A DNA stretch of 28,509 nt. Source: a virus. Numbering within the stretch: position 1 is the first letter of the stretch; each line of letters starts with the position of its first letter. The stretch lies in IMG/VR virus record IMGVR_UViG_3300030107_003973, positions 1-28,509 of that record; one strand, given 5' to 3'. The translations under genes were made by a program, and so were the position numbers. Below the pieces are notes generated by a model that was not told where the DNA came from, did no database searches, and saw nothing but the letters and a program-made list of their open reading frames with translations. This document shows, piece by piece, positions 1 through 27,460 of the stretch.

Positions 1-574
1 GTACAGACTCGTTAAACATTTTATCATAATATTGTATCATATCTGCTGGACCTTTCAAGTATCCAAGTGCTTGTAAAATACAACCATATAAAAGCACGTT
101 TGGGGCATTTTGACTTAACCAAGTAGACGTTTGTGTACTTGATAAACCATCAGGCTTGTACGTGTATGCGATCTCTACAGTTAATGCAGCGTTCGGGGTT
201 GGCGCTATATAGTGTGTATCCTGATCCCACATAGCGTAATATTTAGGGGTAGCATTAGCTGTCCTATCAGGCCAATATTCATTCATAAACGAAATATCTT
301 TTTGTAGCAAGTAAGTTCTCTCTGGTGCACTTGCACTAGCATCATATATTTGTAAATATCTCGTTGCTTGCCAATCACTAGGAAGAGGCATAAAAGGGTT
401 GCCGACGGTTAACGTGGCAGAATCATATTTTCTGTAATAATTTAAATCTACTGTTCTCATAATTTGATCTTCAATAGATTCTATAAAAGGTTTAATAATT
501 GCATCAGATAAAACATTAGTATCTGTTTCAGTGTAATTTCTTACATTATCATTTAAATCGGAATAATCGGTCAT
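1..574 (-). CDS. Head-tail adaptor-like protein, C-terminus cut by window edge
   Basis: Reading the minus strand from the ATG at 574 gives an uninterrupted frame of 191 codons that runs off the window edge, so the C-terminus is missing. The start overlaps the TGA of the upstream gene (ATGA). The protein starts MTDYSDLNDNVRNYTE. It later has an LLYGCILQALGYLKGPADM stretch, a helical segment I associate with the adaptor (neck ring) proteins of podovirus-like phages such as SU10, where the protein sits below the portal. Its position next to another neck-type protein fits. The family call is by recollection of pattern. The open frame itself is certain. Confidence 0.75.
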   Translation of the reverse strand, partial: MTDYSDLNDNVRNYTETDTNVLSDAIIKPFIESIEDQIMRTVDLNYYRKYDSATLTVGNPFMPLPSDWQATRYLQIYDASASAPERTYLLQKDISFMNEYWPDRTANATPKYYAMWDQDTHYIAPTPNAALTVEIAYTYKPDGLSSTQTSTWLSQNAPNVLLYGCILQALGYLKGPADMIQYYDKMFNESV

Positions 575-1041
575 GAGGTGCTCACTGTAACATTTCCAGG
601 ACGAGATAACAACCCTGTGCTTTTTTGAGGTTGTTGTACACTAAGAGGCATCATGCTTCTTTGAGTATCTGCGTAGGCTACGCCATTTGCGTAGTAATTT
701 GTAACTGGTTCTAAAAGAGTTTGAAAAGAATTAACTGCTGTTCCATCTCCCACTCCATCATAAACATCTCCACTAGGGGATAATACTACTTCTCCTGTTG
801 GAGTTCTTACAGTATTATTTCCTACATAAACTCTAGCATTAGCTATTTGAGGTTTAGCGTGTTGTAATGCTGTAAAATCTCTAGGATGGTTTCGTGGATC
901 TAATTGAGGTTGTTTTGGTTCAAATTCTGAAGTATGAACCCAAGAACCATTCCATTCTTGGACCATTTCATTATAAGGAAAAGCCATTCCTGATCTATCA
1001 GAAATTCTTAGAGCATATCTACCAGATGAGTATTTAGCCAT
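571..1041 (-). CDS. Conserved marine-phage structural protein of unknown function
   Basis: The protein has 156 residues. An AGGA Shine-Dalgarno lies 7 bases upstream of the ATG. The N-terminus (SSGRYALRISDRSGMAFPY) and the following EWNG motif match a protein I recall as common in marine myo- and podoviruses, usually lying among neck and tail genes. The second half is rich in Gly, Thr and Asn and ends in a low-complexity PGNVTVSTS tail. It lies between the adaptor at the left edge and the 245-aa neck protein, so a virion role is inferred. No enzyme motif is visible. Confidence 0.8.
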   Translation of the reverse strand: MAKYSSGRYALRISDRSGMAFPYNEMVQEWNGSWVHTSEFEPKQPQLDPRNHPRDFTALQHAKPQIANARVYVGNNTVRTPTGEVVLSPSGDVYDGVGDGTAVNSFQTLLEPVTNYYANGVAYADTQRSMMPLSVQQPQKSTGLLSRPGNVTVSTS

Positions 1042-1049
1042 TTTTTTTC

Positions 1050-1787
1050 CTATTCAAAATATAAAGTTTGTCGTGGCACCATACTATAACTAGCTTTTTC
1101 TACATCTGCCGCTGCAGCTCTACTAAATTCTTCATCATATACAGCTTTTAAAATTTGAATTCTGTCTGGTGCATATTTCATAGAAACATAATATGATAAT
1201 CCTGCTACTAAACATGGTAAAAATCTAAAAGGTATCATCGCATTTTTAGTATAAGCATTTATATCTGTCATACGTAAAGATGCATAATATTTAAAAGTAT
1301 AAGTAGCATCAGCTGCTGGAAAAAGATAAACTTTAGGAAGTATGGTTCTTTCAAAATAAAACTGAGCAGGTCTACCTTGAGTAGTTTTAACTGTATAATC
1401 CCAATAAGTAGACCTACCTATTTTAGTCATTGAATAATCCCCACTGCTATTTGACATAACAGCGCTATCAATATCTACAATTTGAGAACTATCATTATCA
1501 TCAGTAGTAGCATTTCCTGCAGAATCTACTGAATATAAAGCAGTGCCAGAAAGAACCTTTGTTCCTGATGTAACCGTTGCTTCTCTTTGTTGAATAGTCC
1601 ACAAATTTAATCCTCTGTTTGCCCATTCAGCAATCATTAAATTAATAGAACGACGAGCGGTTTTTAATTCGTAACCAGTACGATCTTGTAAACCGCAACG
1701 TTCAAATGCTTCTTCAATTAAAGAATCTAAATCTAATATAAATCCAGCTGTAGAAGAATAACTAGGTGTCCCTGTATTAATAGACAT
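1050..1787 (-). CDS. Probable neck/head-completion protein
   Basis: The protein has 245 residues. An N-terminal helical region of about residues 18-65 (ETS-free, ARRSINLMIAEWANRG) is followed by a beta-rich middle with many Thr, Ser and Asp. It ends in a helical C-terminus containing YAPDRIQILKAVYDEEFSRA. This helix-beta-helix plan with an M-x-EW-x-x-G motif resembles gp4-like head-completion and adaptor proteins that stabilise packaged DNA under the portal. Neighbouring genes on both sides are structural. The start has no strong ribosome site and lies 4 bases after the preceding stop, so coupled translation is likely. The exact family is uncertain. Confidence 0.72.
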   Translation of the reverse strand: MSINTGTPSYSSTAGFILDLDSLIEEAFERCGLQDRTGYELKTARRSINLMIAEWANRGLNLWTIQQREATVTSGTKVLSGTALYSVDSAGNATTDDNDSSQIVDIDSAVMSNSSGDYSMTKIGRSTYWDYTVKTTQGRPAQFYFERTILPKVYLFPAADATYTFKYYASLRMTDINAYTKNAMIPFRFLPCLVAGLSYYVSMKYAPDRIQILKAVYDEEFSRAAAADVEKASYSMVPRQTLYFE

Positions 1788-1791
1788 CTAA

Positions 1792-2079
1792 TTACTTCGC
1801 TATTCCCATACCTCTTTTTGCAATACCACCGCCACGTTTATTAATAACGCCTTTACCAGTGCCTTTACCAAACTTACCGTATGACTCATCTCTACTAGCT
1901 TTTAATTGAGCTGGTGTACGTTTTTTCTTAATTCTCATTGCGATAGATTCATCTTTTCTATCTGTGTAGCCTTGACCGCCTTTTTTTAACATTTTAACTT
2001 TTCCGCCACCACGCATTTTAGCAGTTTTTTTAACTTTTCCGCCACCACGCATTTTAGCAGTTTTCTTTTTACCCATCAT
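1792..2079 (-). CDS. Lys/Gly-rich basic protein with tandem repeat
   Basis: The protein has 95 residues and is strongly basic. The N-terminus carries two back-to-back copies of a 13-residue unit, KKTAKMRGGGKVK. The C-terminus ends in RGGGIAKRGMGIAK, identical to the end of the 128-aa protein at 12359-12745. A GGAGG ribosome site lies upstream, and the ATG overlaps the preceding TGA. Such tails are known to me from marine phage proteins of unknown role. Nucleic-acid binding or DNA condensation is plausible from charge but is only inference. Confidence 0.75.
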   Translation of the reverse strand: MMGKKKTAKMRGGGKVKKTAKMRGGGKVKMLKKGGQGYTDRKDESIAMRIKKKRTPAQLKASRDESYGKFGKGTGKGVINKRGGGIAKRGMGIAK

Positions 2080-2660
2080 GATAGACCTCCATTGATCTTT
2101 TTGTATTTATTAGCACGAGATACCACAACCTCTTGATAGTATTCGTCAGGCCACATTTCATAATAACCTTGTTTGTGCAATTTATCAGAAGCTTCCTGTA
2201 ATTGCGAGAACTTTTGTACCAGCATCATAGAATATTTATAATCGGGACCAGATAAATTAGTGTCATTATTTGGCGAAACAAGGAACTTTTGTTCTTCTTC
2301 GGTTGCAGGGTTAGAGGGGTGAAAACTCATAAAATAGAAGTCTTTTCTATTATACCACTCATTAAAATCTTCAGTAGCTAGATGAAGTTCATCAGGAGAA
2401 TAACTAAAATAAGGATCACAAAATATTAATATTTCTTTCTTAGTAAAATCTAAATTTTTAAGACAATCGTTTAATTCTTTTTTATAGGTGCTATTTTTGG
2501 TTTTAACAGCTACCCATACTTTTTTATCTAGCCATGCTTTTTTAGCAAAAGGACATGCAGGCACCCCACCTAAATGAAGATTAGGAACTTCTAAAAAATG
2601 TTTAGACCAAATCCTAACATCTTCTATTATCTGTTCCCTTGTCGGTTGTATTTTTTCCAT
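2076..2660 (-). CDS. Conserved marine-phage protein with ACPFAKK motif
   Basis: The protein has 194 residues and is soluble, without membrane segments. A motif GGVPACPFAKKAW lies near residues 32-44, followed by an alternating beta-alpha pattern (VWVAVKT, EILIFCDPYF) and a C-terminal half with many aromatic residues. The CPFA motif is reminiscent of the DUF1415-type signature, and I recall similar proteins in marine T4-like phages. No function is established. It overlaps the next gene by four bases (ATGA-type junction) and overlaps the C-terminus of the small basic gene upstream, so it belongs to the late operon. Confidence 0.75.
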   Translation of the reverse strand: MEKIQPTREQIIEDVRIWSKHFLEVPNLHLGGVPACPFAKKAWLDKKVWVAVKTKNSTYKKELNDCLKNLDFTKKEILIFCDPYFSYSPDELHLATEDFNEWYNRKDFYFMSFHPSNPATEEEQKFLVSPNNDTNLSGPDYKYSMMLVQKFSQLQEASDKLHKQGYYEMWPDEYYQEVVVSRANKYKKINGGLS

Positions 2661-2764
2661 GATTTTAACTTATGTTTATTTTTAGGTTTAGATTTACTAG
2701 AATTACCTATACTCGTTCTTTTTCTAACAGGAGTAAAATACTCATTTGTTATTTTTTTAGCCAT
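2627..2764 (-). CDS. Small basic protein (TSIGNS / KPKNKHK type)
   Basis: The protein has 45 residues, reading MAKKITNEYFTPVRKR and then TSIGNSSKSKPKNKHKLKSW. The TSIGxS...PKNKHK..WKKY..QG pattern matches a small basic protein I recall from many phages, which supports this frame although it is short. The ATG at 2764 lies 3 bases after the stop of the 23-aa reading frame upstream, and its 3' end overlaps the 194-aa gene by 34 bases. No clear Shine-Dalgarno is seen. The charge suggests nucleic-acid or ribosome contact; the function is unknown. Confidence 0.65.
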   Translation of the reverse strand: MAKKITNEYFTPVRKRTSIGNSSKSKPKNKHKLKSWKKYNRQGNR

Positions 2765-2767
2765 ATT

Positions 2768-2839
2768 TTATAAATACGTTATAGCTCCCATAACCCATAA
2801 AGTTCCAAAAATTATATATGCTATAGTTACTGGTTCCAT
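2768..2839 (-). CDS. Putative 23-aa single-pass membrane microprotein
   Basis: A short frame of 23 codons reads MEPVTIAYIIFGTLWVMGAI and ends TYL. It is one hydrophobic helix with an acidic N-terminal end. The ATG overlaps the end of the 102-aa gene and has AAAGGA just upstream, and its stop falls 3 bases before the next ATG. Spacing and hydrophobicity make it credible, but at this length chance cannot be excluded. It would sit in the inner membrane, near the other membrane-anchored products encoded at 2.8-4.1 kb. Confidence 0.45.
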   Translation of the reverse strand: MEPVTIAYIIFGTLWVMGAITYL

Positions 2840-3135
2840 TTTTCCTTTGCTCTTAATGTCCATCTTTCAAATGCTTTTGCATCTATATCTTTTTTTATCA
2901 TCGTAGCACCTTCTGGTACTTCATTGTAAAGAGCAATAACTTCGCCATCTTCTATATGTACAATACCAGGTCCACAAAAAGCATCTTTATCATATCCTGT
3001 ATTTTTCTTTTTAAGTAATCGTACTTCTTTCATACATTTAGATAATGACTCCATAGGAATATACTGTGTCATTTGATTTGATTGATCATTCATATTACCA
3101 AAAACAAACATAAGGATTACGCTAATGACTTCCAT
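2827..3135 (-). CDS. Small protein with hydrophobic N-terminus, conserved marine-phage cluster
   Basis: The protein has 102 residues. Residues 1-14 (MEVISVILMFVFGN) form a short hydrophobic stretch that could be a signal or anchor. The rest is soluble and contains two cysteines (SKCMKEVR and DAFCGPG) that could pair in the periplasm. The C-terminus is charged. It overlaps the gene upstream by 14 bases and lies in a run of membrane and secreted proteins from 6.2 to 2.8 kb. The function is unknown. It probably works with its neighbours at the cell envelope. Confidence 0.7.
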   Translation of the reverse strand: MEVISVILMFVFGNMNDQSNQMTQYIPMESLSKCMKEVRLLKKKNTGYDKDAFCGPGIVHIEDGEVIALYNEVPEGATMIKKDIDAKAFERWTLRAKEKWNQ

Positions 3136-16409: not shown

Positions 16410-19177
16410 TATGCTGCCTCAAATATATCAATTATTTCGGGAGTATACACCATACCACCATCTTTTCTATGAGTTTTATGAGGTAATAGCATTTCTGGTG
16501 TAATCTTTATAGCAAAAGAATCTCCTATTCCATTTACATCTATAACTTTAATTTCTGAATTATTTTCTTTTGCTGCTTTTCTTAGAATTTTTTCTAACGT
16601 CGCAGTATAGTGTTTACCCTTTGGATCAACACTATCTGGGCCTCCATAAAATTCTTCGGTTCCAATTCCTTTCATACTGCTGGTTCTTTCTGTATAAGGC
16701 GTATTTGTTCCACCATAATTTGTTCCTTTCCAATATCTCTCATTAATAAATTTTGCAGGAGATATAGAATACCACTCTGCTGCTCCTTCAACTTTATCAG
16801 GTCCAAACAACCGATTTGCTGCTTTTGCCAAATCTCTTTTTACTAAAGCTGAGCCCCATTCCATTCTGTTTTTAAAGGGAACATTAGGAAATAACTTCTG
16901 CAAGGATTCTTGACTCATAGCGGTCTCTAAATCTTGTAACATCTTACTTTGTTTAGTACGCGCTTCTCTTGCTTTTATAACAAGTTGTTTATCTGGGCGA
17001 AGACCAGCTTTAGCTAAATCCTGTAAAACAAGTTGTGTTTTTGCATACTCATTCATAAATTGTTGCATTTCTGTTGCACTTTGAAAGATAGGTCTAAAGA
17101 CAGATTTATTTCTTATGAAGTATTCTGCAACTTCAGGATTCATATCCCTAAAGTCTCCTCTATATGAACGTTGTGCTACACGTATTTGTTCTTTAACAAA
17201 ATCAATATTTTTATCCATTAAATCGCCAAGCTGCTCTTTAAACTTTTCTTCCATACGTTTAGCTTGTTGTAAAACATCGGATTGTATTTCATCAGCAAAT
17301 GTTACGGTAACTTCTTGACCTTTCGTTGAGGCTTCCATTTTTTGTAACTTTGCGGCGTCACTATCTATTTTCATTCTAAACTGTAAAATCTGTTGCTCTA
17401 ACGGCTCATCAATACTTCGCAGTCTTGCCATAGTATCTGTATCTAAAACATTTCTTATTTCTGCCATTGTTAACTCATCTACATTATCAATATCAACTAA
17501 ACCTTCTCGCTCTAGTTTTCTCAAAGCAGATGTTTCTAAACCTTTTAATTGGGTATCTAATTTTTTTTGATTACGCTTGAGTGTTCTAATCATAGCAGGA
17601 TCTACCTGCTCTGCTATCCCTTGTGCTGTTTTTTCTACAGGTAATGTTGCTTTACGGTCCGTGAGCCGCGACCACCCGATCACGTACTTTTCTGTAAAGT
17701 CATGACCACTTACTGGTAATGAATCAGGATCAAGAGGAATTTTGTTTGACGGTACATATAATACATCTTCTCTGTAAGAACCTGGAATTTCTCCTGATTC
17801 GTAATGTCCTCCTCCATACTTAGCGGATTTAGTTCCGCCGTATGCTGCATCGCCATATGTTACATTATCGATATGACGCATTGGAGATTGGCGAATAATT
17901 TCCAACATGTCATTTGTTACTAATGGCGTTTTATTTTTACCTGCTATTTCTACATATCTATTTAAAATATTATCTTCGAGTTCAGGTTTAGAAATTTGTT
18001 TGTTTTGTAGAAAGGCATAAAAATCATCAGCACTCTTAAATGTTTTTGGTGTGTTAGGGTCCATGAGCCGTGCTTCAAGGCCTGAGTAAAATACTGACTC
18101 ATTCGCTTCTGGTGAATCAATAATTGTTTTCTTTGATTTAACAACACCTAGTTCTGTTCCTCCAGCAGGTGTATCAATAATGTCTATATCCTCTACGGCT
18201 TCTCCCATAACTTCGTCTTTAGTTCCTAGTTTCTTTTTTATAGCATCTAAAATTCCTTTTTCATTTTTTGTTAAGTCCTGTAAAAGCATTTTTGCTTTAG
18301 GCACGTTGCCAATGGCCCACATAGGAGCTTTACCAAATAGATTTGCCATTTGTACTTCTTCTGGTCCACCTGCTACTGTAGTGTCTTCTTCGAATATATT
18401 AGTCTCGAGCCCTGGCTCACCGCCCATGGCTAAACCTGGTGCACCTGCCTTACCAATTGCGTCTGCCATATCTTCTACCATAGCGGTTCCTACGTAATCA
18501 CGAGGATCTATTCTGATTGATTTATCCTCTACTTCATCAGAAAATAAAAAATCTTGAAATTTTTCTTTGCTTTCTTCTAATCCTGATAGTCCTCCCGCTG
18601 CAGTTGCTCCACCACCAGAAATAATAACAGCATTTATAAGCATATCTTTGGCTTTGTCTCCTTGTGGAATTAAATCTTTAATAAATCCCCCTACTCCTTT
18701 TTTTGGTCTTAAAATTGTATCGTGCATTTGACCAACGCTATAAGGGTAGGCTTTTCGTAAAGACTCGTATACTCGTGGTGCTTTAGTAGCTAATAAATTT
18801 AAACCTTTTAACCATCCCCCAGGAACAGCTATAATACTTGTTACATCGTTAACCGTATTCATTTCTTCGTTGGTATAATCTATTCGAGGAATAGTATCTA
18901 ATAAAGGAAGTTTATCTTGTTCTTCTTGAAAAACATTATAGACCTGAGCAGGTATTTGACCAAGAGTGATTAGAGAATTAACGAAATCAGTTCCTACATT
19001 AACAGGAAGTTTGGCTAAATCTAGTGCAGCGTCTTTATCTCGTTGTATTTGTTCAGGTGATGTTCTAGATGCTTTGTAGTCTTCTGACTGCTTTGTTAAA
19101 TAATCAAAATACTCTTGAGAGTTTGCAAAATCTTGTTCTTGAAAATCACTAAATATATCAAAATTTTCTTCAGCCAT
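16409..19177 (-). CDS. Large probable virion/ejected protein with EIQSD domain
   Basis: The protein has 922 residues. A Gly/Ala-rich hydrophobic stretch lies near 178-200 (LINAVIISGGGATAAGG), possibly membrane-active. From about 345 to the end it resembles a domain I know from large phage polyvalent and ejected proteins: a KYGGGHYESGEIPGSYREDV segment, VTFADEIQSD at 630-634, PFKNRMEWGSALVKRDLAKA and a final YTATLEKILRKAAKENNSEI block. The EIQSD...PF..W..L..K order is conserved in that domain. The biochemical activity is unknown. The C-terminus carries a KDGGMV tail like that of the 524-aa protein. Its place between that gene and the portal suggests ejection with the DNA. Confidence 0.7.
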   Translation of the reverse strand: MAEENFDIFSDFQEQDFANSQEYFDYLTKQSEDYKASRTSPEQIQRDKDAALDLAKLPVNVGTDFVNSLITLGQIPAQVYNVFQEEQDKLPLLDTIPRIDYTNEEMNTVNDVTSIIAVPGGWLKGLNLLATKAPRVYESLRKAYPYSVGQMHDTILRPKKGVGGFIKDLIPQGDKAKDMLINAVIISGGGATAAGGLSGLEESKEKFQDFLFSDEVEDKSIRIDPRDYVGTAMVEDMADAIGKAGAPGLAMGGEPGLETNIFEEDTTVAGGPEEVQMANLFGKAPMWAIGNVPKAKMLLQDLTKNEKGILDAIKKKLGTKDEVMGEAVEDIDIIDTPAGGTELGVVKSKKTIIDSPEANESVFYSGLEARLMDPNTPKTFKSADDFYAFLQNKQISKPELEDNILNRYVEIAGKNKTPLVTNDMLEIIRQSPMRHIDNVTYGDAAYGGTKSAKYGGGHYESGEIPGSYREDVLYVPSNKIPLDPDSLPVSGHDFTEKYVIGWSRLTDRKATLPVEKTAQGIAEQVDPAMIRTLKRNQKKLDTQLKGLETSALRKLEREGLVDIDNVDELTMAEIRNVLDTDTMARLRSIDEPLEQQILQFRMKIDSDAAKLQKMEASTKGQEVTVTFADEIQSDVLQQAKRMEEKFKEQLGDLMDKNIDFVKEQIRVAQRSYRGDFRDMNPEVAEYFIRNKSVFRPIFQSATEMQQFMNEYAKTQLVLQDLAKAGLRPDKQLVIKAREARTKQSKMLQDLETAMSQESLQKLFPNVPFKNRMEWGSALVKRDLAKAANRLFGPDKVEGAAEWYSISPAKFINERYWKGTNYGGTNTPYTERTSSMKGIGTEEFYGGPDSVDPKGKHYTATLEKILRKAAKENNSEIKVIDVNGIGDSFAIKITPEMLLPHKTHRKDGGMVYTPEIIDIFEAA

Positions 19178-20753: not shown

Positions 20754-20917
20754 TATTCTTTAATTATTTTATAATTTTTTTTACGTCTGTCTTTAACTTC
20801 TAGTAATTGTATTTCTTTTACCATTTTTTGAGCTAATAAATCTAATTGTGATCTATTAAGTAAACTTGAACCTGGCTTTACATAAAGACCTAAATTTTTT
20901 TTAATTTTACTAACCAT
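20753..20917 (-). CDS. 54-aa basic protein linking terminase and 524-aa gene
   Basis: The frame reads MVSKIKKNLGLYVKPGSSLL, then NRSQLDLLAQKMVKEIQLLE and a basic DRRKKNYKIIKE end. Both ends are TAATG junctions: its ATG shares a base with the large-terminase TAA and its TAA with the next ATG. This double coupling, plus the helical amphipathic composition, supports a real gene despite the length. It may be a small terminase partner or packaging accessory, but no family is recognised. Confidence 0.75.
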   Translation of the reverse strand: MVSKIKKNLGLYVKPGSSLLNRSQLDLLAQKMVKEIQLLEVKDRRKKNYKIIKE

Positions 20918-22362
20918 TAATAATACTCCCTCATGCCTACAAGAAATTGTGGTTCATCCTTATAGTCTGAATCTAATTGTATAAAGTTTCCTTGACGGAA
21001 ACGCAACAACGCCTGTGTTGTTGAATCGACCAAATCGTCATGTTCACCATAAGGGAAAGCAGCGCATTCTTCAATAACTTCTTCAGCCCACCTATCATCA
21101 GTTGCCCATACTTGTCCTGCTTCAAAAAGTGGAGCTACGGAGTTGACACGTACATGCTTATCATTGCCCTTACTAGGCGTATAAGTTACTACAGGAATTC
21201 CTAATTGACGTAGCTCCTGAGTTAAGGGCATACCAGAAGCTTTGGCTTCAATCAAGATTGTTTCAGGTTCCCAGTATGTACATTGTTCTAACGCAATCTT
21301 TTTAAGCTCGGGAAAATCCCAACGTCCCTTACGCATAGCAAGAAGTATGATGTTCCATGGTCCGTGTTCCACGGGTTTAAATACACCCCACGTTGTTATA
21401 GCTGAATAGTCTGCTGTTTCTTTTTTACTGAACGCTGTGTCATAACTTTGTATAACATGCATTAAATCAGGTATTTCAGGTTTAGGCCAAACTTTCCACC
21501 ACTCGCGTTTAATAATTGAACCTTCCTCTGACGTTGGAGCTTGTTGCCATTGAGCTTGCCATTTTTGTTCTGACAGCGAAGCTTTAACACCTTTAAGTTC
21601 ATCTAGTTTCCAAAACTCAGGCCATAATGGTTTATCATTCAAGACAGCTGGAAACTCGACCACTTCCCACTGATCTGAGTTTTCATTAGTTTGAGCCGCC
21701 ATTAATTTTCCCGTTAGATCTTTTACCGACCAACGAGTCATAACTATAACAATAGCGCCACCAGGTTGTAAACGTTGTCTAGGTCCAGAGGTGTACCATT
21801 CGTAAGCATTGTCCATGGCTGTTTGTGAGAGAGCGTCTTGCTCGGAGTGAGGATCATCAATAATAAGCAAGTCAGCACCACGCCCAGTAATAGCACCACC
21901 CACACCAGCAGCAAAATACTCTCCACCAGAGTTAGTTGTAAAACGCCCCGCTGCCTTAGAGTCTTGTGATAAGCTGACAGTCGGGAATACATCTTTGAAA
22001 TCTTGTTGATCAAATAAGTTCCTCACTTTCCTACCAAAGTTATACGATAATTCTGCCGTGTGTGTCGTCTGAATTATTTTTAATTTTGGTTTTTGTCCCA
22101 TCATCCACGCAGGAAAAAGGTGAGATGCAAACTCAGACTTCGTATGTCTAGGTGGCATATTCACAATAAGTCGTTTTATTTTTCCACGTGAAATGTCTTC
22201 AAATTTTTTTGCAATAATTTTATGATGTTTACCTGCAACAAACTCAGGCCAAACTTTTCTTACAAAAGTTAGGAAGGAGGAACGAGACTCCTCTGCAACC
22301 TTTATCTGTAGCTTTCTTAATTCGTATTTTAATAAATCCGTTGGGATCTTAGAATTTTCCAT
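20917..22362 (-). CDS. terL: Terminase large subunit
   Basis: The protein has 481 residues. The ATPase domain has a Walker A-like VNMPPRHTKS at 68-76, Walker B LLIIDDPH at 165-172 and the coupling motif VMTRWSVKD near 208. The nuclease domain has its acidic residues at D308 (QSYDTAFSKKETADYSA), E372 (ILIEAKASG) and D442-D443 (HDDLVDSTTQ). It packages and cuts concatemeric DNA at the portal. The ATG at 22362 has no ribosome site; a sigma-70-like promoter just upstream would give a leader of only a few bases. The small subunit is about 4 kb away rather than adjacent. Confidence 0.95.
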   Translation of the reverse strand: MENSKIPTDLLKYELRKLQIKVAEESRSSFLTFVRKVWPEFVAGKHHKIIAKKFEDISRGKIKRLIVNMPPRHTKSEFASHLFPAWMMGQKPKLKIIQTTHTAELSYNFGRKVRNLFDQQDFKDVFPTVSLSQDSKAAGRFTTNSGGEYFAAGVGGAITGRGADLLIIDDPHSEQDALSQTAMDNAYEWYTSGPRQRLQPGGAIVIVMTRWSVKDLTGKLMAAQTNENSDQWEVVEFPAVLNDKPLWPEFWKLDELKGVKASLSEQKWQAQWQQAPTSEEGSIIKREWWKVWPKPEIPDLMHVIQSYDTAFSKKETADYSAITTWGVFKPVEHGPWNIILLAMRKGRWDFPELKKIALEQCTYWEPETILIEAKASGMPLTQELRQLGIPVVTYTPSKGNDKHVRVNSVAPLFEAGQVWATDDRWAEEVIEECAAFPYGEHDDLVDSTTQALLRFRQGNFIQLDSDYKDEPQFLVGMREYY

Positions 22363-22646: not shown

Positions 22647-22916
22647 TTATCTACGAGGTATGAACTGTGCTAATCTTTGCATAACTCTATTGCCCCAATC
22701 TTTTACATATTGAGGACAGTTAGGATCTAACACAACTGTTTCAACTTCGCTTTCTAAAACTTTGTACAAAGCTTTCCAATTAATGTTATCAGTATGAGTC
22801 GCTTGTATTGGCTCATTAGTCTGATTAACTACTTGGCTATTATTAACAGGTCTAAGACCAAAGGTCTGCTCAACTACTGCTAATCTTCTTGATAAGTCGT
22901 CATCATTATCTGGCAT
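22647..22916 (-). CDS. 89-aa protein of unknown function
   Basis: The protein has 89 residues. An acidic MPDNDDDLSRRL start is followed by a helical segment, a Gln/Asn-rich linker (VNNSQVVNQTNEPIQ) and a second helical part with one cysteine (DPNCPQYVKDWGNRVMQRLA) and a basic FIPRR end. AAGGAAAAA lies upstream of the ATG. It stands alone between a probable promoter at 22.95 kb and a strong terminator at 22.6 kb, so it is a one-gene transcription unit. I do not recognise it. Confidence 0.72.
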   Translation of the reverse strand: MPDNDDDLSRRLAVVEQTFGLRPVNNSQVVNQTNEPIQATHTDNINWKALYKVLESEVETVVLDPNCPQYVKDWGNRVMQRLAQFIPRR

Positions 22917-22940: not shown

Positions 22941-22969
22941 TTCTTACTCCCATTTCTTTTTATAGTCAA
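22941..22969 (-). promoter_or_regulatory. Promoter-like element upstream of the 89-aa gene
   Basis: TTGACT (22969-22964) is followed after 17 bases by TAAGAA (22946-22941), a weak -10. It shares TTGACTAT-N9-TGGGA-N-TA with sites at 24.42 and 26.13 kb. The same bases can be read as the end of a short peptide (FDYKKKWE), so a coding explanation is also possible. Confidence 0.4.
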
Positions 22970-23027
22970 ATTCTTTTTTACTTTTCTTTTTTACTTGACA
23001 ACCGACCAACTCCCACGCCCCCTGCAA
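22944..23027 (-). pseudogene. C-terminal gene remnant or 27-aa ORF
   Basis: From a TTG at 23027 the frame reads LQGAWELVGCQVKKKSKKEF and ends DYKKKWE. The composition is protein-like and unlike the GC-rich DNA beside it. Upstream in the same frame there is a stop inside the modular repeat at 23031-23080. It could be the 3' end of a gene whose 5' part was replaced by the repeat. No ribosome site is seen. Confidence 0.3.
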
Positions 23028-23030
23028 GTT

Positions 23031-23156
23031 CTTACTATACTAGGTAGGCGAAATCGCCTTAACTATAATGGAATGGAAGTAGGAACTCCGTCGCGGGGTA
23101 CATTCCTAATTATACTATACTAAGGGTACAGCCGTACCTGTAATGGAATGGAAATG
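23031..23156. repeat. Two copies of the TACTATA / AATGGAATGG modular repeat
   Basis: Copy 1 (23031-23080) has ttactatac, then the hairpin AGGCG-aaat-CGCCT, then aatggaatggaagt. Copy 2 (23110-23156) has atactatac, then the hairpin GGTAC-agcc-GTACC, then aatggaatggaaatg. Plus-strand spacing between the two motifs is 26 and 21 bases. Apart from the promoter and the remnant described separately, 22917-23209 has nothing else but the terminator. Confidence 0.8.
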
Positions 23157-23163
23157 CGGACGT

Positions 23164-23185
23164 AAAAAAAGGGGGCAAAGCCCCC
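23164..23185 (-). terminator. Intrinsic terminator after the 137-aa gene
   Basis: GGGGGC (23171-23176) pairs with GCCCCC (23180-23185) around a 3-base loop, followed on the minus strand by seven T. It lies 25 bases past the stop of the 137-aa gene and is the clearest terminator in the window. Confidence 0.93.
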
Positions 23186-23209
23186 TTGACTACTTAGGCA
23201 TTATTGGAA

Positions 23210-23623
23210 CTAAGCAGAAATTCTAAAGTCTGCTACCTCATCGATTGTCGATTTCTTATTTCTCGAAACCGTGCTTTCCGATAAAGGCATAGCTTGTATT
23301 TGTTTATATTCTGTTGGTACTTTGCATTGGTGGTACGCAATCTCGCCAAGTTTTTCTTTAACGAGTTTGTTGTCAATCTTAGCACCCAATTTTTGTGATA
23401 CATGAAGTGAGTAATCCCTCCCATGTAATAGGTTAGCATTTTCTCCAAACGCTAAGTCTATCATTAGTTGTCGGTTTACTTTAATAAAGTCTGCTAAAAC
23501 TTTTTGCATTGTTAACGCACGACCATAGGCATCTATGATAGCTTGTTTATTTCTTTTGCTAACACTAGCAGGACTTTGTTGTGCTTTCTCTAGCACTTCT
23601 AATATATTAACAGCTTTTGACAT
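23210..23623 (-). CDS. 137-aa protein of unknown function
   Basis: The protein has 137 residues, is soluble and mostly helical in the first half (RNKQAIIDAYGRALTMQKVL). It then has a compact block HGRDYSLHVSQKLGAKIDNK and a polar Ser/Thr-rich end. AAAGGAAAA lies upstream of the ATG at 23623. It has its own sigma-70-like promoter at 23.67 kb and its own terminator, so it is a single-gene unit inside the repeat-rich segment. Codon use is AT-rich like the rest of the phage, unlike the flanking DNA. The family is not recognised. Confidence 0.75.
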   Translation of the reverse strand: MSKAVNILEVLEKAQQSPASVSKRNKQAIIDAYGRALTMQKVLADFIKVNRQLMIDLAFGENANLLHGRDYSLHVSQKLGAKIDNKLVKEKLGEIAYHQCKVPTEYKQIQAMPLSESTVSRNKKSTIDEVADFRISA

Positions 23624-23658
23624 TTTATTTTCCTTTCGTCTTTCTAGTTAATATTATC

Positions 23659-23687
23659 TATATAACATGTCCCATTCTATTTGTCAA
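23659..23687 (-). promoter_or_regulatory. Sigma-70-like promoter for the 137-aa gene
   Basis: A consensus -35 TTGACA (23687-23682) and -10 TATATA (23664-23659) stand 17 bases apart on the minus strand, 36 bases before the ATG at 23623. The spacer contains ATGGGACATG. In 23624-23801 only this promoter and one modular repeat are seen. Confidence 0.72.
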
Positions 23688-23743
23688 TACTTATTATTAA
23701 TTATTTTTCCACGAAATCTTCCCGAAGCGTGTCCCGCGGATCA

Positions 23744-23797
23744 GCTACTACTACTATAGTACAACACGCCTGGTCGGAAATGCAATGGAGATGCAGT
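23744..23797. repeat. Modular repeat copy (TACTACTATAGTA ... AATGGAGATG)
   Basis: The plus strand reads gctactactactatagtac, then a 20-base GC-rich spacer and atgcaatggagatgcag. The distance from ctactatag to aatgg is 24 bases, the same as in the copy at 24491-24543. A CCGCGG palindrome lies just before it. Confidence 0.75.
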
Positions 23798-23801
23798 TGA
23801 G

Positions 23802-23939
23802 TTACCATGGCACGACCGTCCAATCTACGAGAGTCATGACGGATGAAATCAGCAGCAGTGTACCAGCAGCTACGTGTGCGGGGAACATGACTAGGAATAC
23901 AATGTACACGGCCAATGCAGCTATAATGTAATGCAGCAT
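23802..23939 (-). CDS. 45-aa two-helix membrane protein in GC-rich DNA
   Basis: From the ATG at 23939 the protein reads MLHYIIAALAVYIVFLVMF, then PAHVAAGTLLLISSVMTL and a DWTVVPW end, that is two short transmembrane helices. The ATG overlaps the TGA of an ORF upstream (TGATG), a coupling usual in this phage. Base composition is clearly more GC-rich than in most genes of the window, which suggests recent acquisition or a different origin. It is too small for family assignment. A holin-like or envelope peptide is possible. Confidence 0.5.
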   Translation of the reverse strand: MLHYIIAALAVYIVFLVMFPAHVAAGTLLLISSVMTLVDWTVVPW

Positions 23940-24061
23940 CAGGCGATCTGTCCTGGTGCAGTGCACATGATCATCTCCTGCATCTGGGCCCACGCTTCAG
24001 CATCCTGCTGCACGAGCACATGCGCGCGGATGGGCCTCCCCAGCTGAACTGCCAGCGCCAA
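23939..24061 (-). CDS. Putative 40-aa ORF overlapping the 75-aa gene
   Basis: A TTG at 24061 with AAGGAAGG just upstream opens a frame of 40 codons. It starts LALAVQLGRPIRAHVLVQQD, then AEAWAQMQEMIMCTAPGQIA, and its TGA overlaps the next ATG. It is in the -1 frame relative to the 75-aa gene. Either it is a separate overlapping gene or the two frames are one gene broken by a frameshift; the protein-like composition and the coupled stop favour this frame as translated at its 3' end. Confidence 0.42.
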   Translation of the reverse strand: MALAVQLGRPIRAHVLVQQDAEAWAQMQEMIMCTAPGQIA

Positions 24062-24198
24062 TATCCTTCCTTTTGATCGTTGAATGTATTCGGTTCTACG
24101 TAATCAAAGCTGAGTGCTTCGAAATCTGGATTCTTCAGATCCTCTGCTCTGTTGGTCCATTTGTCTTCTACTAAATCAATGCATGCCTGTTCTTTCAT
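23971..24198 (-). CDS. 75-aa protein with WRWQFSWGGPS motif, C-terminus replaced
   Basis: The protein has 75 residues. The first 57 are AT-rich and protein-like, ending with YWRWQFSWGGPS. I recall this motif from a conserved phage protein that normally continues for several dozen more residues. Here the next codons (ARMCSCSRMLKRGPRCRR) come from GC-rich DNA, look non-native and soon reach a stop. AAGGAAC lies before the ATG. It is best read as a gene truncated at its 3' end by a GC-rich insertion or rearrangement near 24030. Confidence 0.6.
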   Translation of the reverse strand: MKEQACIDLVEDKWTNRAEDLKNPDFEALSFDYVEPNTFNDQKEGYWRWQFSWGGPSARMCSCSRMLKRGPRCRR

Positions 24199-24216
24199 GT
24201 TGTTCCTTTCTAATGT

Positions 24217-24396
24217 GGTGGGGGTTGGACCCTAGGTTTATTACAGCAATAACCAACCCCCGTTGGTGAGTCAGGGCGTCTGGCAAATGTCTCGACTTAT
24301 CAACTAATTGATATTACAGCGGTCTCATTCCCATCGCCTCAGCTCCTGACTCGAACTGCATGCGCCTCTCGCCTATCGGGTCACTCGCTTCAGTTC
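24217..24396 (-). promoter_or_regulatory. Highly structured leader RNA before the 75-aa gene
   Basis: About 180 bases without a credible gene contain nested perfect stems: GAACTG/CAGTTC (24353-24358 with 24391-24396), GAGTCAGG/CCTGACTC (24268-24275 with 24345-24352) enclosing the hairpin ATCAA-ctaa-TTGAT (24299-24312), and GGGGGTTGG/CCAACCCCC (24220-24228 with 24253-24261). The last stem competes with a GGT-TATT/AATA-ACC pairing inside it. A promoter-like site lies directly upstream and the ribosome site of the 75-aa gene directly downstream. It does not match any riboswitch class I know. Confidence 0.55.
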
Positions 24397-24403
24397 AGGT
24401 ACT

Positions 24404-24432
24404 TATATAGTCCCACTTTATTAGATAGTCAA
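24404..24432 (-). promoter_or_regulatory. Sigma-70-like promoter upstream of the structured leader
   Basis: TTGACT (24432-24427) and TATATA (24409-24404) are 17 bases apart on the minus strand, giving a start near 24397, the first base of the structured RNA. It shares TCTTGACTAT-N9-TGGGA-N-TATA with the site at 26.13 kb. The same DNA also lies in a 21-codon frame from an ATG at 24460 (ending DYLIKWDYIST), so part of the similarity could be coding. Confidence 0.55.
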
Positions 24433-24490
24433 GATCTAATTCTATTTTATTTACAGACATGTGTGCCACGGCAGTAGCGCGCCAGCTGCG

Positions 24491-24910
24491 GTTTACTACT
24501 ATAGTACCGCGACCCGCGGGACATCGGCAATGGAATGGAGATCTACCATCTCAGCTTCCTGGCCTGAGCTGCAGCTGCAGGAACTACTATGCCTCGCAAC
24601 CCCTTGATTTCTGGTAATGGAAATGCAAACGATCATGCCGATCAGCAGACCCAGCTGCAGGGGACGCTGGTAGTTACTGGTACTACGCTTGGTTTCTGGT
24701 AATGGGTAATGGAAATGGAGAAGGGAATCCTTCGGTGAAGCTGCCTGGTACGCTGCCCCAGCTCCTGGTACTACTGTTGTGGGGCTTCGGGCTTCGGCAA
24801 TGGGCAATGGAGAAGGAGTTCCCGTACCTGGTCCCAGCTGGATGCGCCAGATCCCACTTCTATTACCCAATAGGGGCGAGGACAATGGGCAATGGAGGCA
24901 ATGGAGGGAG
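24491..24910. repeat. Five copies of the modular repeat in GC-rich palindromic DNA
   Basis: Copies lie at 24491-24543, 24581-24627, 24668-24723, 24765-24815 and 24857-24910. Each has an actac/actat box, a GC-rich spacer and one to three aatgg units such as ggtaatggaaatg or ggcaatgggcaatgg. Between them are many 6-base palindromes (CTGCAG, CAGCTG, CCGCGG, GCGCGC). Part of the run (24771-24910) lies in the frame of the nuclease gene. The 24434-24770 stretch holds no credible gene. Confidence 0.75.
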
Positions 24911-25196
24911 CCACTAATCCTGGAAAGATATACAGTAAGCTCTCTTCGAGGGTAGTGGCTATAATAAAGTTTCTTCCTCCTTGTAAACTATGGTTAAAAT
25001 TCCATGATTTTTGAAAGGGGGATAATTTAATCTTCTTACTGTGAATTACTTTTAGTTCAACCCAAATCGATATACCATCTTTGATTCCATAACAATCTGG
25101 TACGCCTGGCGACGCCCAGTTTTCAAACCTAGTCCAATGAATATCTGATAAATTTTCTTTAATTAATTTCCATAATTTAGTTTCTGGTTTTACCAT
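24771..25196 (-). CDS. VRR-NUC-like PD-(D/E)xK nuclease with altered C-terminus
   Basis: From the ATG at 25196, which overlaps the preceding TAA, the protein has 141 residues. Residues 1-93 have the VRR-NUC pattern: ETKLWKLIKENL, the active-site run SPGVPDCYGI (D34), WVELKV (E47 and K49) and SPFQKSW (Q62). Such nucleases act on branched DNA in phage replication or recombination. From residue 94 on (LVAPSIASIAHCPRPYW) the sequence is encoded by GC-rich modular repeat DNA. A QVREL motif, usual near the end of the family, appears 29 residues later than expected, as if a repeat were inserted in frame. Confidence 0.75.
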   Translation of the reverse strand: MVKPETKLWKLIKENLSDIHWTRFENWASPGVPDCYGIKDGISIWVELKVIHSKKIKLSPFQKSWNFNHSLQGGRNFIIATTLEESLLYIFPGLVAPSIASIAHCPRPYWVIEVGSGASSWDQVRELLLHCPLPKPEAPQQ

Positions 25197-25526: not shown

Positions 25527-25943
25527 CTACTTTTTTCCAAAAATTACAACTGCAGAAGGAAATGGTGCGCTATTTTTAGAACCTCCAAACTTCAATCTGC
25601 CTCTTATAAATTCTACATTACCCTTGATGGCATACTCATGCCACCAGTTCGTATCAGTTCTTGCGGGAACTAAACAAACAACAACAGCCCCCTTCAAAGC
25701 ACTATCATATGCTTTTTTCATCCACTTACCAATCTCTCTACCATAAGGTGGATTCATCCAACATACACCAGTCCATGTCTTACTCAAGCCATCATCTTCC
25801 TTTGTATAAAACTTATCACACTTAGCATTTTCAATGTTAGCACATACATCTGTATCAAACCCATAGATTTTATTATATCTATCAAAAAAATCTTGTGGTG
25901 TTGACCATAAATCAGTAGCACTAGAAAAATGAACCTTGTTCAT
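25527..25943 (-). CDS. Phage DNA N-6-adenine methyltransferase (Dam)
   Basis: From the ATG at 25943 (AGGAAG just upstream) the protein has 138 residues, the usual length of the phage Dam family PF05869. LWSTPQDFFDRYNKIYGFD near residue 12, DVCANIENAKCDKFYT and the catalytic NPPY at 64-67 are all typical. So are PARTDTNWWHEYA and the RGRLKFGG end. It methylates adenine, probably for protection from host restriction or for packaging control. A longer GTG start at 25982 is possible but lacks a ribosome site. Confidence 0.9.
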   Translation of the reverse strand: MNKVHFSSATDLWSTPQDFFDRYNKIYGFDTDVCANIENAKCDKFYTKEDDGLSKTWTGVCWMNPPYGREIGKWMKKAYDSALKGAVVVCLVPARTDTNWWHEYAIKGNVEFIRGRLKFGGSKNSAPFPSAVVIFGKK

Positions 25944-26117
25944 ACTTCCTCTCTTTCTAAGACTGGCATATTTTATACTCACAATGATATACGCATTGAG
26001 ACAGGTATATTTTTACATCTGGTAGCCTGTAATGTCAAACCTCAACATAGTGGCAAGTATATCTATGCTTTTCGCCTGTTGGTTAACTTTTCATTATCAG
26101 AAACCAGTCTTATATAC

Positions 26118-26146
26118 CCTATAATCCCATCTAATCTTATAGTCAA
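26118..26146 (-). promoter_or_regulatory. Promoter-like element upstream of Dam
   Basis: TTGACT (26146-26141, overlapping the small-terminase stop) and TATAGG (26123-26118) are 17 bases apart. The spacer contains TGGGA at the same place as the 24.42 and 22.95 kb sites. A second -35-like TTGACA lies at 26038-26033 with a poor -10. No gene is seen in 25944-26142. Confidence 0.45.
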
Positions 26147-26676
26147 GACTTATTTTCTAATTCTTTTACTTCTTCAAACGTAGTTTCAATACTGTATTGT
26201 TCTTTGAGATCCTGTAACTTCTTCTCTACTTCATCTCTTGACATCGAATCTATCGTACCCGTAAGTATCTCTTTCTTATCGACATACAACCCAGCAATCT
26301 GTCCACGGCGAGTCTCTGCAGCTACGGCAGCGTTCCAATTTCCTGATTCAGATGCTTTATCCCTAATTCGCGCCAATGTAGATAAGGACCTTTCTTGCGT
26401 ACACTTGTACCTTTCAACAATAGCTCGTCTTTCTGATTCAATAGCTTTTGCAACCAAAGGATACTTCTCAGGGTTCTGGAGCTCTGATGCTCTTACAACT
26501 GCTGAGTCTTTTGCGTATCCTGCCTGTAATGCGCAATGCGTAGCAGTATGCAAACCTTCACTGTGAACTAATAACAAAATAAACTTTCTTTGTTTTCCTG
26601 TTATCTTGTGGTGAAAAAGTGCGTCTGACAACGCCTCTGGTATAATGACTTCTTGTTTTTCTTTGTTTTCTTCCAT
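26143..26676 (-). CDS. terS: Terminase small subunit
   Basis: From the ATG at 26676 the protein has 177 residues. It has the Terminase_2 pattern: TGKQRKFILLLVHSEGLHTA followed by ALQAGYAKDSAVVRASEL (the N-terminal helix-turn-helix that recognises viral DNA), then central helices for ring assembly and DSMSRDEVEKKLQDLKEQY at the C-terminus. A TTG at 26691 would add five residues. It selects the genome for packaging with the large subunit encoded 4 kb downstream. The short leader follows a promoter at 26.73 kb and a group of GGTTAC boxes. Confidence 0.87.
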   Translation of the reverse strand: MEENKEKQEVIIPEALSDALFHHKITGKQRKFILLLVHSEGLHTATHCALQAGYAKDSAVVRASELQNPEKYPLVAKAIESERRAIVERYKCTQERSLSTLARIRDKASESGNWNAAVAAETRRGQIAGLYVDKKEILTGTIDSMSRDEVEKKLQDLKEQYSIETTFEEVKELENKS

Positions 26677-26710
26677 AATGCACCCATTCAATAGATGTTT
26701 CTTCCCAGAA

Positions 26711-26920: not shown

Positions 26921-27460
26921 TTATCTAACCCAAGTAATAATGACGTGTCTGTCTCCGTTGGAAACTGGGGTAATGGCGTGTGGAAAACAAAAATTACTAG
27001 GGAATACAATGGCACTACAAGATTTCTTAGGGATTGTATATTCGCCCTCAAAAAAAGTAAAATCACCCCCATCATAATCATCATTAAGAATTAATGAACA
27101 GGTCAAGAGCCGTGGTTCGCGGTCAGTCGACATATCAACGTGTTCCTTGTACTCCTGAGCTTTATCTCCCATATACAAAACATGGTCCCACCCCGTTGTA
27201 TCTCCTTTAATGGAATTAAAAAAACTAAACTCTTTAATATAATTTTTAAAAGCTTTCATAAAAAGATTAGCAACCTCTTTATTAAATTTAGGATCAAGGG
27301 CCTTGATTAAACAATTCCGATGCGTACTTAATTGACCACCGCCCGTGGTAGCTGGATCAAAAGATAAATTTCGTTGATAAATAATATTAGTAGCAAGTTC
27401 TTTGGGAACAAAATCTTTATATTCTTTAATGTAGTTTCTCGTATGAGTGTATTTACTCAT
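26921..27460 (-). CDS. 2-oxoglutarate/Fe(II) dioxygenase
   Basis: The protein has 179 residues. The iron-binding facial triad is visible: H107-x-D109 (YKEHVDMS) and the distal H161 (CFPHAITPV), with R171 (NGDRHVIITW) for the 2-oxoglutarate carboxylate. The strand pattern LTCSLILNDDYDGGDFTFFE is that of prolyl-4-hydroxylase-like double-stranded beta helices. It oxidises an unknown protein, nucleobase or small-molecule substrate. The ATG overlaps the preceding TGA. Such genes are frequent in marine phages, but the substrate cannot be read from the sequence. Confidence 0.87.
   Translation of the reverse strand: MSKYTHTRNYIKEYKDFVPKELATNIIYQRNLSFDPATTGGGQLSTHRNCLIKALDPKFNKEVANLFMKAFKNYIKEFSFFNSIKGDTTGWDHVLYMGDKAQEYKEHVDMSTDREPRLLTCSLILNDDYDGGDFTFFEGEYTIPKKSCSAIVFPSNFCFPHAITPVSNGDRHVIITWVR

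Follow-up and report, generated by a model that had tools for sequence, protein, structure and literature searches.

Few viruses of the sea are as abundant as pelagiphages. The DNA considered here, a window of 28,509 nucleotides, constitutes the first 28.5 kb of the 63,981-base IMG/VR virus record IMGVR_UViG_3300030107_003973, which, judged from its sequence, is an HTVC023P-type pelagiphage, i.e., a member of the group described in PMC9599517; the gene of its large terminase subunit (TerL) is 64-67% identical in DNA sequence to those of HTVC023P, HTVC027P and 023Pt_psg01. Between TerL and the gene of the small terminase subunit (TerS) lies a GC-rich island of short repeats, which is interpreted here as a set of promoter-linked operator arrays, read on the minus (gene) strand, for a small phage regulator of the ribbon-helix-helix (RHH) type. 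To this interpretation we assign a probability of about one half. The repeats themselves are real, conserved, uniform in orientation and linked to promoters. A search of open-access papers on pelagiphage repeats, promoters and RHH regulators yielded none that describes the array.

The genes around the island are all found on the minus strand, in the order TerS, Dam, VRR-NUC-like nuclease, o75, o137, o89 and TerL, where o75, o137 and o89 are small genes located between the nuclease gene and TerL.

Repeat units on the gene strand

An earlier note, made from the letters of the window alone, described eight copies of one plan on the plus strand of the island, composed of a TACTATA-like box, a spacer that is often a hairpin, and one to three AATGG words. 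The step missing from that description is a reading on the minus strand: there, the element shows a -10-like TATAGTA in place of the TACTATA box, and an upstream direct repeat of CCATT in place of AATGG. The unit on the gene strand is then CCATT-N(0-2)-CCATT, followed after about 25 nt by a -10-like TATAGT.

An AATGG cluster is found at all eight places (23067/72, 23142/47, 23784, 24529/34, 24616, 24701/08/14, 24799/806 and 24884/91/900). Within 23001-24950 the plus strand harbors 16 AATGG words (2.5 expected from 2000 dinucleotide shuffles), eight AATGG-N0-4-AATGG pairs (0.02 expected) and 16 box-to-AATGG matches (0.03 expected), i.e., the motif is far commoner than in shuffled sequence, whereas the minus strand of the same interval holds two AATGG words and neither pairs nor box-to-AATGG matches. 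The plus-strand pairs are found nowhere else in the whole 64-kb record. The richness of the island in G+C (0.42-0.52, compared to 0.27-0.44 elsewhere) and in palindromes (10, compared to 1.4 after shuffling) was also described correctly.

Four of the units lie close to gene starts. Elements A (23034..23076; CCATTCCATT at 23067-23076, a 27-nt gap and TATAGT at 23034-23039) and B (23109..23151; CCATTCCATT at 23142-23151, a 27-nt gap and a 6/6 TATAAT at 23109-23114) are the two units upstream of the o89 promoter. Element C (23753..23788), with a single CCATT at 23784-23788, a 25-nt gap and TATAGT at 23753-23758, is located upstream of the o137 promoter, and element D (24498..24538; CCATTCCATT at 24529-24538, a 25-nt gap and TATAGT at 24498-24503) is the array unit closest to the o75 promoter. 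Further from the gene, element E (24586..24620) combines CCATT at 24616-24620 with a degenerate -10 sequence, CATAGT, at 24586-24591, and element F (24667..24718) combines three CCATT words (24701, 24708 and 24714) with a weak -10 sequence (3/6). Overall, the boxes of the four gene-proximal elements match the -10 consensus at 5/6 or 6/6 positions, at a distance of 25-27 nt, while those of the distal elements match at 3-4/6.

The last two units overlap the 3' end of the nuclease gene (24771..25196, minus strand), which we take to belong to the VRR-NUC family. Its product matches PHROG 2165, which is labeled DNA helicase, and shows a weak match to Holliday-junction resolvases and none in Pfam. 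Element G (24768..24810) places two CCATT words within the 3' coding end (LLHCPLPKPEAPQQ*), and element H (24857..24904) places three within the part encoding APSIASIAHCP, such that the C-terminal end of the protein, ...APSIASIAHCP..LLHCPLPKPEAPQQ, is encoded by these two units. In relatives the CCATT words of this gene end are retained, while the reading frame and the residues vary (SI-SI or HSPL-SI), which points to selection on CCATT as DNA.

The earlier note saw few credible genes in the island. Four small genes are nevertheless present in the interval, and the two copies placed at 24765 and 24857 overlap the coding end of VRR-NUC. Beyond the VRR-NUC gene, the array is not coding. A protein-coding array was considered, as several units would encode similar peptides on both strands, but in contrast to coding controls the lengths of the gaps are not multiples of three; the substitution distances at period three were 0.321 for the array and 0.395-0.457 for coding controls.

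The suggested hairpins were not recovered. One of the eight spacers folds better than its shuffles at P<0.05, the spacers display only a weak tendency to fold (mean z -0.5), and in about 40 islands the minimum free energy of the whole array is not below that of shuffles (mean z -0.15 for the plus strand and -0.36 for the minus strand). Together with a search of Rfam, in which the array gave no match above threshold, these scores contradict the structured RNA locus among the suggestions of the note. A related proposal is that a structured or sponge RNA is made from the array, e.g., one where GGA-rich repeats titrate an RNA-binding protein. ANGGA-type motifs are known in RNA, and the AUGGA repeats resemble them; the constancy of the strand would also fit. 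Yet this proposal is very improbable, because it is opposed by the same folding and Rfam results, no plus-strand promoter was recognised by eye, and the word of a sister clade, GCTTG (see below), contains no such motif.

Conservation among relatives

The pattern TACTATA-N10-30-AATGGAATGGA matches 100 IMG/VR contigs. About 40% of these raw matches arise by chance in unrelated coding DNA and were excluded, which leaves roughly 60 true copies of the island. The GC bump and the plus-biased AATGG words were found in all profiled TerL relatives with sufficient upstream DNA, and the array is located between the TerL and TerS genes in all close relatives compared. Because motif and GC bump recur in many independent contigs, the island is not an assembly artefact.

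A profile of the unit identifies copies in 117 of 290 loci, always in a terminase context (the sole exception being one 721-base fragment) and, in 447 of 447 cases, in the orientation opposite to that of the genes. This single locus and uniform orientation contradict a dispersed repeat of the REP or MITE type, and a search of 84,980 bacterial and archaeal genomes for the exact pattern, aimed at a host-derived or mobile element, yielded no match. The note's mobile palindromic repeat family is thereby contradicted. A replication origin was also rejected, as the minimum of the cumulative GC skew is found near 46 kb rather than 24 kb.

In 42 non-redundant islands, the number of units is mostly 3-6 and their median spacing is 88 (quartiles 83-94). 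Units are shuffled, with an offset of more than 60 nt in 44% of matches. A recombination site, as the note also proposed, is not needed to describe these data; nothing in the shuffling indicates a site-specific mechanism. Variable unit number and shuffling, together with the replacement of the word between clades, are what would be expected of selfish or neutral tandem repeats without a function of their own, multiplied within an intergenic spacer through unequal recombination. We consider this explanation improbable, on the basis of the single orientation of all units, the conserved position of the words relative to the -10 sequences and core promoters, and the degree to which two words are retained. 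When islands are aligned and the VRR-NUC part is removed, ATGGA is retained in 83%, AATGG in 81% and CTATA in 81% of cases, i.e., ranks 2-4 of 167 pentamers, for which the mean retention is 49%; CTATA/TATAG is the box of the unit.

The geometry of the unit is likewise conserved. At 22-28 nt from 41% of the 218 double CCATT sites, a sequence is found that matches TATAAT at 5/6 positions or better, compared to 2.4% in shuffles (maximum 5.5%) and 0-10% in other windows. Such a -10 match is seen in the unit closest to the gene in 57% (o75), 63% (o137) and 57% (o89) of cases, and in distal units in at most 26%, falling to 4% in the fifth unit. Out of the four suggestions offered in the note, a tandem regulatory array is the only one that the evidence supports.

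Promoters of the small genes

Each of the three small genes is preceded by a core promoter on the minus strand. For o75 (23971..24198; coding as judged by substitution periodicity), which lies 3' of the array, TTGACT (24427-24432) and TATATA (24404-24409) are separated by 17 nt, with GTGGGA in the spacer (promoter 24404..24432). For o137 (23210..23623), a small conserved coding gene with no assigned function located 3' of element C, TTGACA (23682-23687) and TATATA (23659-23664) are again 17 nt apart (promoter 23659..23687). Both promoters, recognised in the sequence, are conserved in relatives. For o89 (22647..22916), also small, conserved and with no assigned function, located 3' of elements A and B, the sequence and that of relatives define TTGACT (22964-22969), 17 nt and TAAGAA (22941-22946), with ATGGGA in the spacer (promoter 22941..22969).

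The median distance from the last CCATT to the -35 box is 95 bp for o137, 96 bp for o75 and 103 bp for o89, and CCATT is nearly absent upstream of TerL, VRR-NUC and TerS (0.2 per 330 bases). In each of the 201 distinct o75, o137 and o89 core promoters, [AG]TGGGA is found within 28 nt past the -35 box, mostly at about ten nt; the background in random 28-base windows is 1.3%. In many core promoters this element contains AATGG, i.e., the operator word in inverted orientation.

The o75 gene of the window appears shortened or frameshifted relative to the longer L136 version (YWRWQFSWGGPSDEL...), as though a stretch had been lost past SWGGP.

Sister clades

The same locus carries other words in other clades. 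In the interval between VRR-NUC and TerL, the clade of the window displays 5.4 CCATT per kb (1.5 for its complement), and the HTVC027P/psg01 clade displays 4.9 GCTTG per kb (1.0 for its complement). The spacings of GCTTG in the latter clade peak at 7, 14, 21 and 28, i.e., the words form GCTTGNN heptads. Long GCTTG runs are placed at the 3' end of VRR-NUC. Away from VRR-NUC, 18 of 26 runs have a TTGAC-like box within 40 nt (background 15%), many directly abutting it; in these promoters a TATAGG -10 sequence follows at 22-25 nt and a start codon is found soon after. The strict promoter pattern missed these promoters and was loosened to TTGAC, TTGTC or TTGCC.

HTVC027P (L208) has three long arrays at VRR-NUC (16506-16631), in addition to two shorter arrays located at promoters (17396 and 17719). 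Its heptad-linked promoters are located at gp33 and gp34 only and carry TATAGGAT boxes. HTVC027P does not encode its own RNA polymerase, and in its infection transcriptome gp33 and gp34 alone make up "extra cluster 2", with high expression at 6-9 h (PMC12753301). The genes with heptad promoters thus coincide exactly with this cluster, a match that was noticed after the arrays had been found and that rests on independent data for two genes. A specific and testable operator-regulator pair, as proposed here, would account for the separate expression cluster of gp33 and gp34.

Two further observations concern these relatives. The heptads at 16506-16631 encode a Leu/Cys-rich C-terminal tail of the HTVC027P VRR-NUC protein, and HTVC023P has five copies of CTAGGAAA just upstream of TerS (L209 1680-1771), another lineage-specific repeat near the terminase genes.

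A candidate RHH reader

A gene located just outside the window (record 28827-28979, minus strand) encodes a small RHH-like protein of 50 residues with relatives in all four clades; the homologue of HTVC027P is found at about 11.6 kb of its record, in the region of gp21. Some family members match RHH/Arc-like families (best E 3e-4 in Pfam and 1.5e-4 in PHROG), and the copy belonging to the window gave no such match. The 50-residue protein is predicted to have the RHH fold: its AlphaFold2 model is composed of two helices (mean pLDDT 86), and the leading Foldseek matches in the PDB are Arc, FitA, CopG, PutA and AmrZ, with probabilities up to 0.99 and E of at least 0.16. The DNA-contact strand of this predicted RHH protein changes with the word across clades, i.e., the N-terminal strand is KFKSVAV in 18 of 18 loci with CCATT and KYKSL[AS]V in 9 of 9 loci with GCTTG or GCTCG. 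A precedent is offered by omega of plasmid pSM19035, an RHH protein whose binding sites, runs of the 7-bp repeat WATCACW, overlap promoters (PMC9499535).

Binding of the word by a protein, the identity of this protein with the RHH protein and the sign of its effect are all inferred. The tandem CCATT words would serve as a binding platform for the phage RHH protein near the promoters of the inter-terminase genes. The protein would control when these small genes are expressed, possibly as a repressor, in which case their expression would be transient. Duplication of whole units, with a period of about 88 bp, may have built the o75 array and extended it backwards into the VRR-NUC 3' end, and at the same locus sister clades would combine another word, in GCTTGNN heptads, with an RHH protein that has diverged.

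Several observations weigh against such operator arrays. The units in the clade of the window lack a -35 box and lie about 95 bp from what seems to be a complete core promoter, and their words, in runs of 2-3, are spaced by 7 (165 cases), 5 (79) or 6 (66) rather than strictly by 7. The VRR-NUC 3' end, a place at which the sister clade has no gene start, harbors the longest arrays. The repeats of psg01 are less regular, and the array of the HTVC023P clade is weak, with a slight enrichment of the GCAGC type. The temporal argument is based on two genes, the RHH matches are weak in both sequence (Pfam 3e-4) and structure (Foldseek E 0.16), and the association of word and RHH protein is confounded with phylogeny.

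Possible packaging and dual roles

The main alternative is a recognition region for DNA packaging (pac/cos-like), where the words are bound by TerS (26143..26691, minus strand; Terminase_2/phrog_51) and the VRR-NUC nuclease takes part in DNA maturation. In the clades examined, the array lies in fixed orientation between TerS and TerL (20917..22362, minus strand; Terminase_6C/phrog_38), beside the nuclease gene, the VRR-NUC 3' end invariably harbors the longest array, and the word follows the TerS clade (CCATT with the TerS of the window type, GCTTG with the inverted 027/psg TerS). This link between TerS and word is, however, confounded with phylogeny, and packaging leaves unexplained why units of the word are also found upstream of o137 and o89 and why heptads abut -35 boxes; the -10 geometry and the gene-proximal gradient are features of promoters. 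A packaging role alone is therefore considered unlikely. The virus records have been either circularised or cut at arbitrary points.

The array may also have two roles. As in parS of pSM19035, the long array at the VRR-NUC end could act at the level of DNA (packaging, segregation or titration) and the promoter copies could be regulatory, with one RHH protein reading both. This arrangement would agree with the three long and two shorter arrays of HTVC027P, and RHH-ParB proteins are known to recognise promoter-overlapping parS repeats (PMC9499535), but a need for partition is not known in lytic phages; we regard it as a tentative proposal, on the unlikely side. Held with similar reserve is the broader suggestion of a fast-turnover operator language at a fixed locus. 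Every lineage would then have a tandem word (CCATT, GCTTG, GCTCG or another) and an RHH reader of its own, as well as a long version of the array in the 3' end of the nuclease gene; the array would switch the inter-terminase genes and at the same time function at the level of DNA, in packaging, segregation or titration. In this case the word would be a marker of lineage identity and would restrict cross-regulation in co-infection.

Because one operator word replaces another from lineage to lineage while the locus stays the same, the promoter-linked operator arrays proposed here would provide a natural series for the evolution of RHH-DNA specificity. The data suggest that some of the commonest viruses of the ocean carry a genetic switch that evolves fast.

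Other features of the record

A gene for a Dam-type adenine methyltransferase (25527-25982) is located between VRR-NUC and TerS, in the window alone among the relatives checked. The record also holds several genes resembling 2OG-Fe(II) oxygenases, at 26921-27460 (from a library scan) and 50,209-57,105 (judged from the sequence). The ends of the record (window 1-3045 and approximately 60,960-63,980) share a block of tail genes at 68-88% DNA identity, and for this reason may have been joined from two strains, in which case the true genome would be about 61 kb; the island is far away from this possible join.

Comparison with known systems

The arrays share features with several known systems. REP, BIME and MITE elements are also GC-rich units with palindromic linkers, but the units described here occupy one locus in one orientation and display no excess of hairpins. 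Like pac and cos regions, the island has repeated short words between terminase genes; here, the words are found also at gene promoters.

Activator-dependent phage promoters, such as the MotA middle promoters of T4 and PRE of lambda, combine a -10 sequence and no -35 box with a short upstream word, as do the units of the window, and CII of lambda reads direct repeats. The arrangement of the window differs from these promoters in that the word is located about 25 nt before the -10 sequence and is found in tandem arrays. No homologue of MotA or CII was found among the proteins scanned, in a survey that was not aimed at them.

The predicted fold of the 50-residue protein is that of the Arc and CopG repressors, and models of the Arc-like or CopG type match several members of its family. 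These repressors classically act at short operators, whereas here many tandem words are found, which are replaced between lineages.

The closest likeness is to omega and its WATCACW repeats, and is put forward as an analogy rather than as membership in the omega/parS system. In both cases runs of non-palindromic direct repeats are found at promoters, with a small RHH protein, here a predicted one, encoded on the same replicon, and the resemblance includes the 7-bp period in the sister clade, where GCTTGNN arrays abut -35 boxes. The differences are the word itself and, in the clade of the window, the spacing of 7, 5 or 6 and the arrangement in short runs within an 88-bp unit about 95 bp upstream of a core promoter. 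Judged from the sequences, the island would thus be of a known kind, i.e., tandem short operators for an RHH protein, and what appears to be new is the lineage-specific turnover of the word at one fixed locus and the overlap of the array with a coding end.

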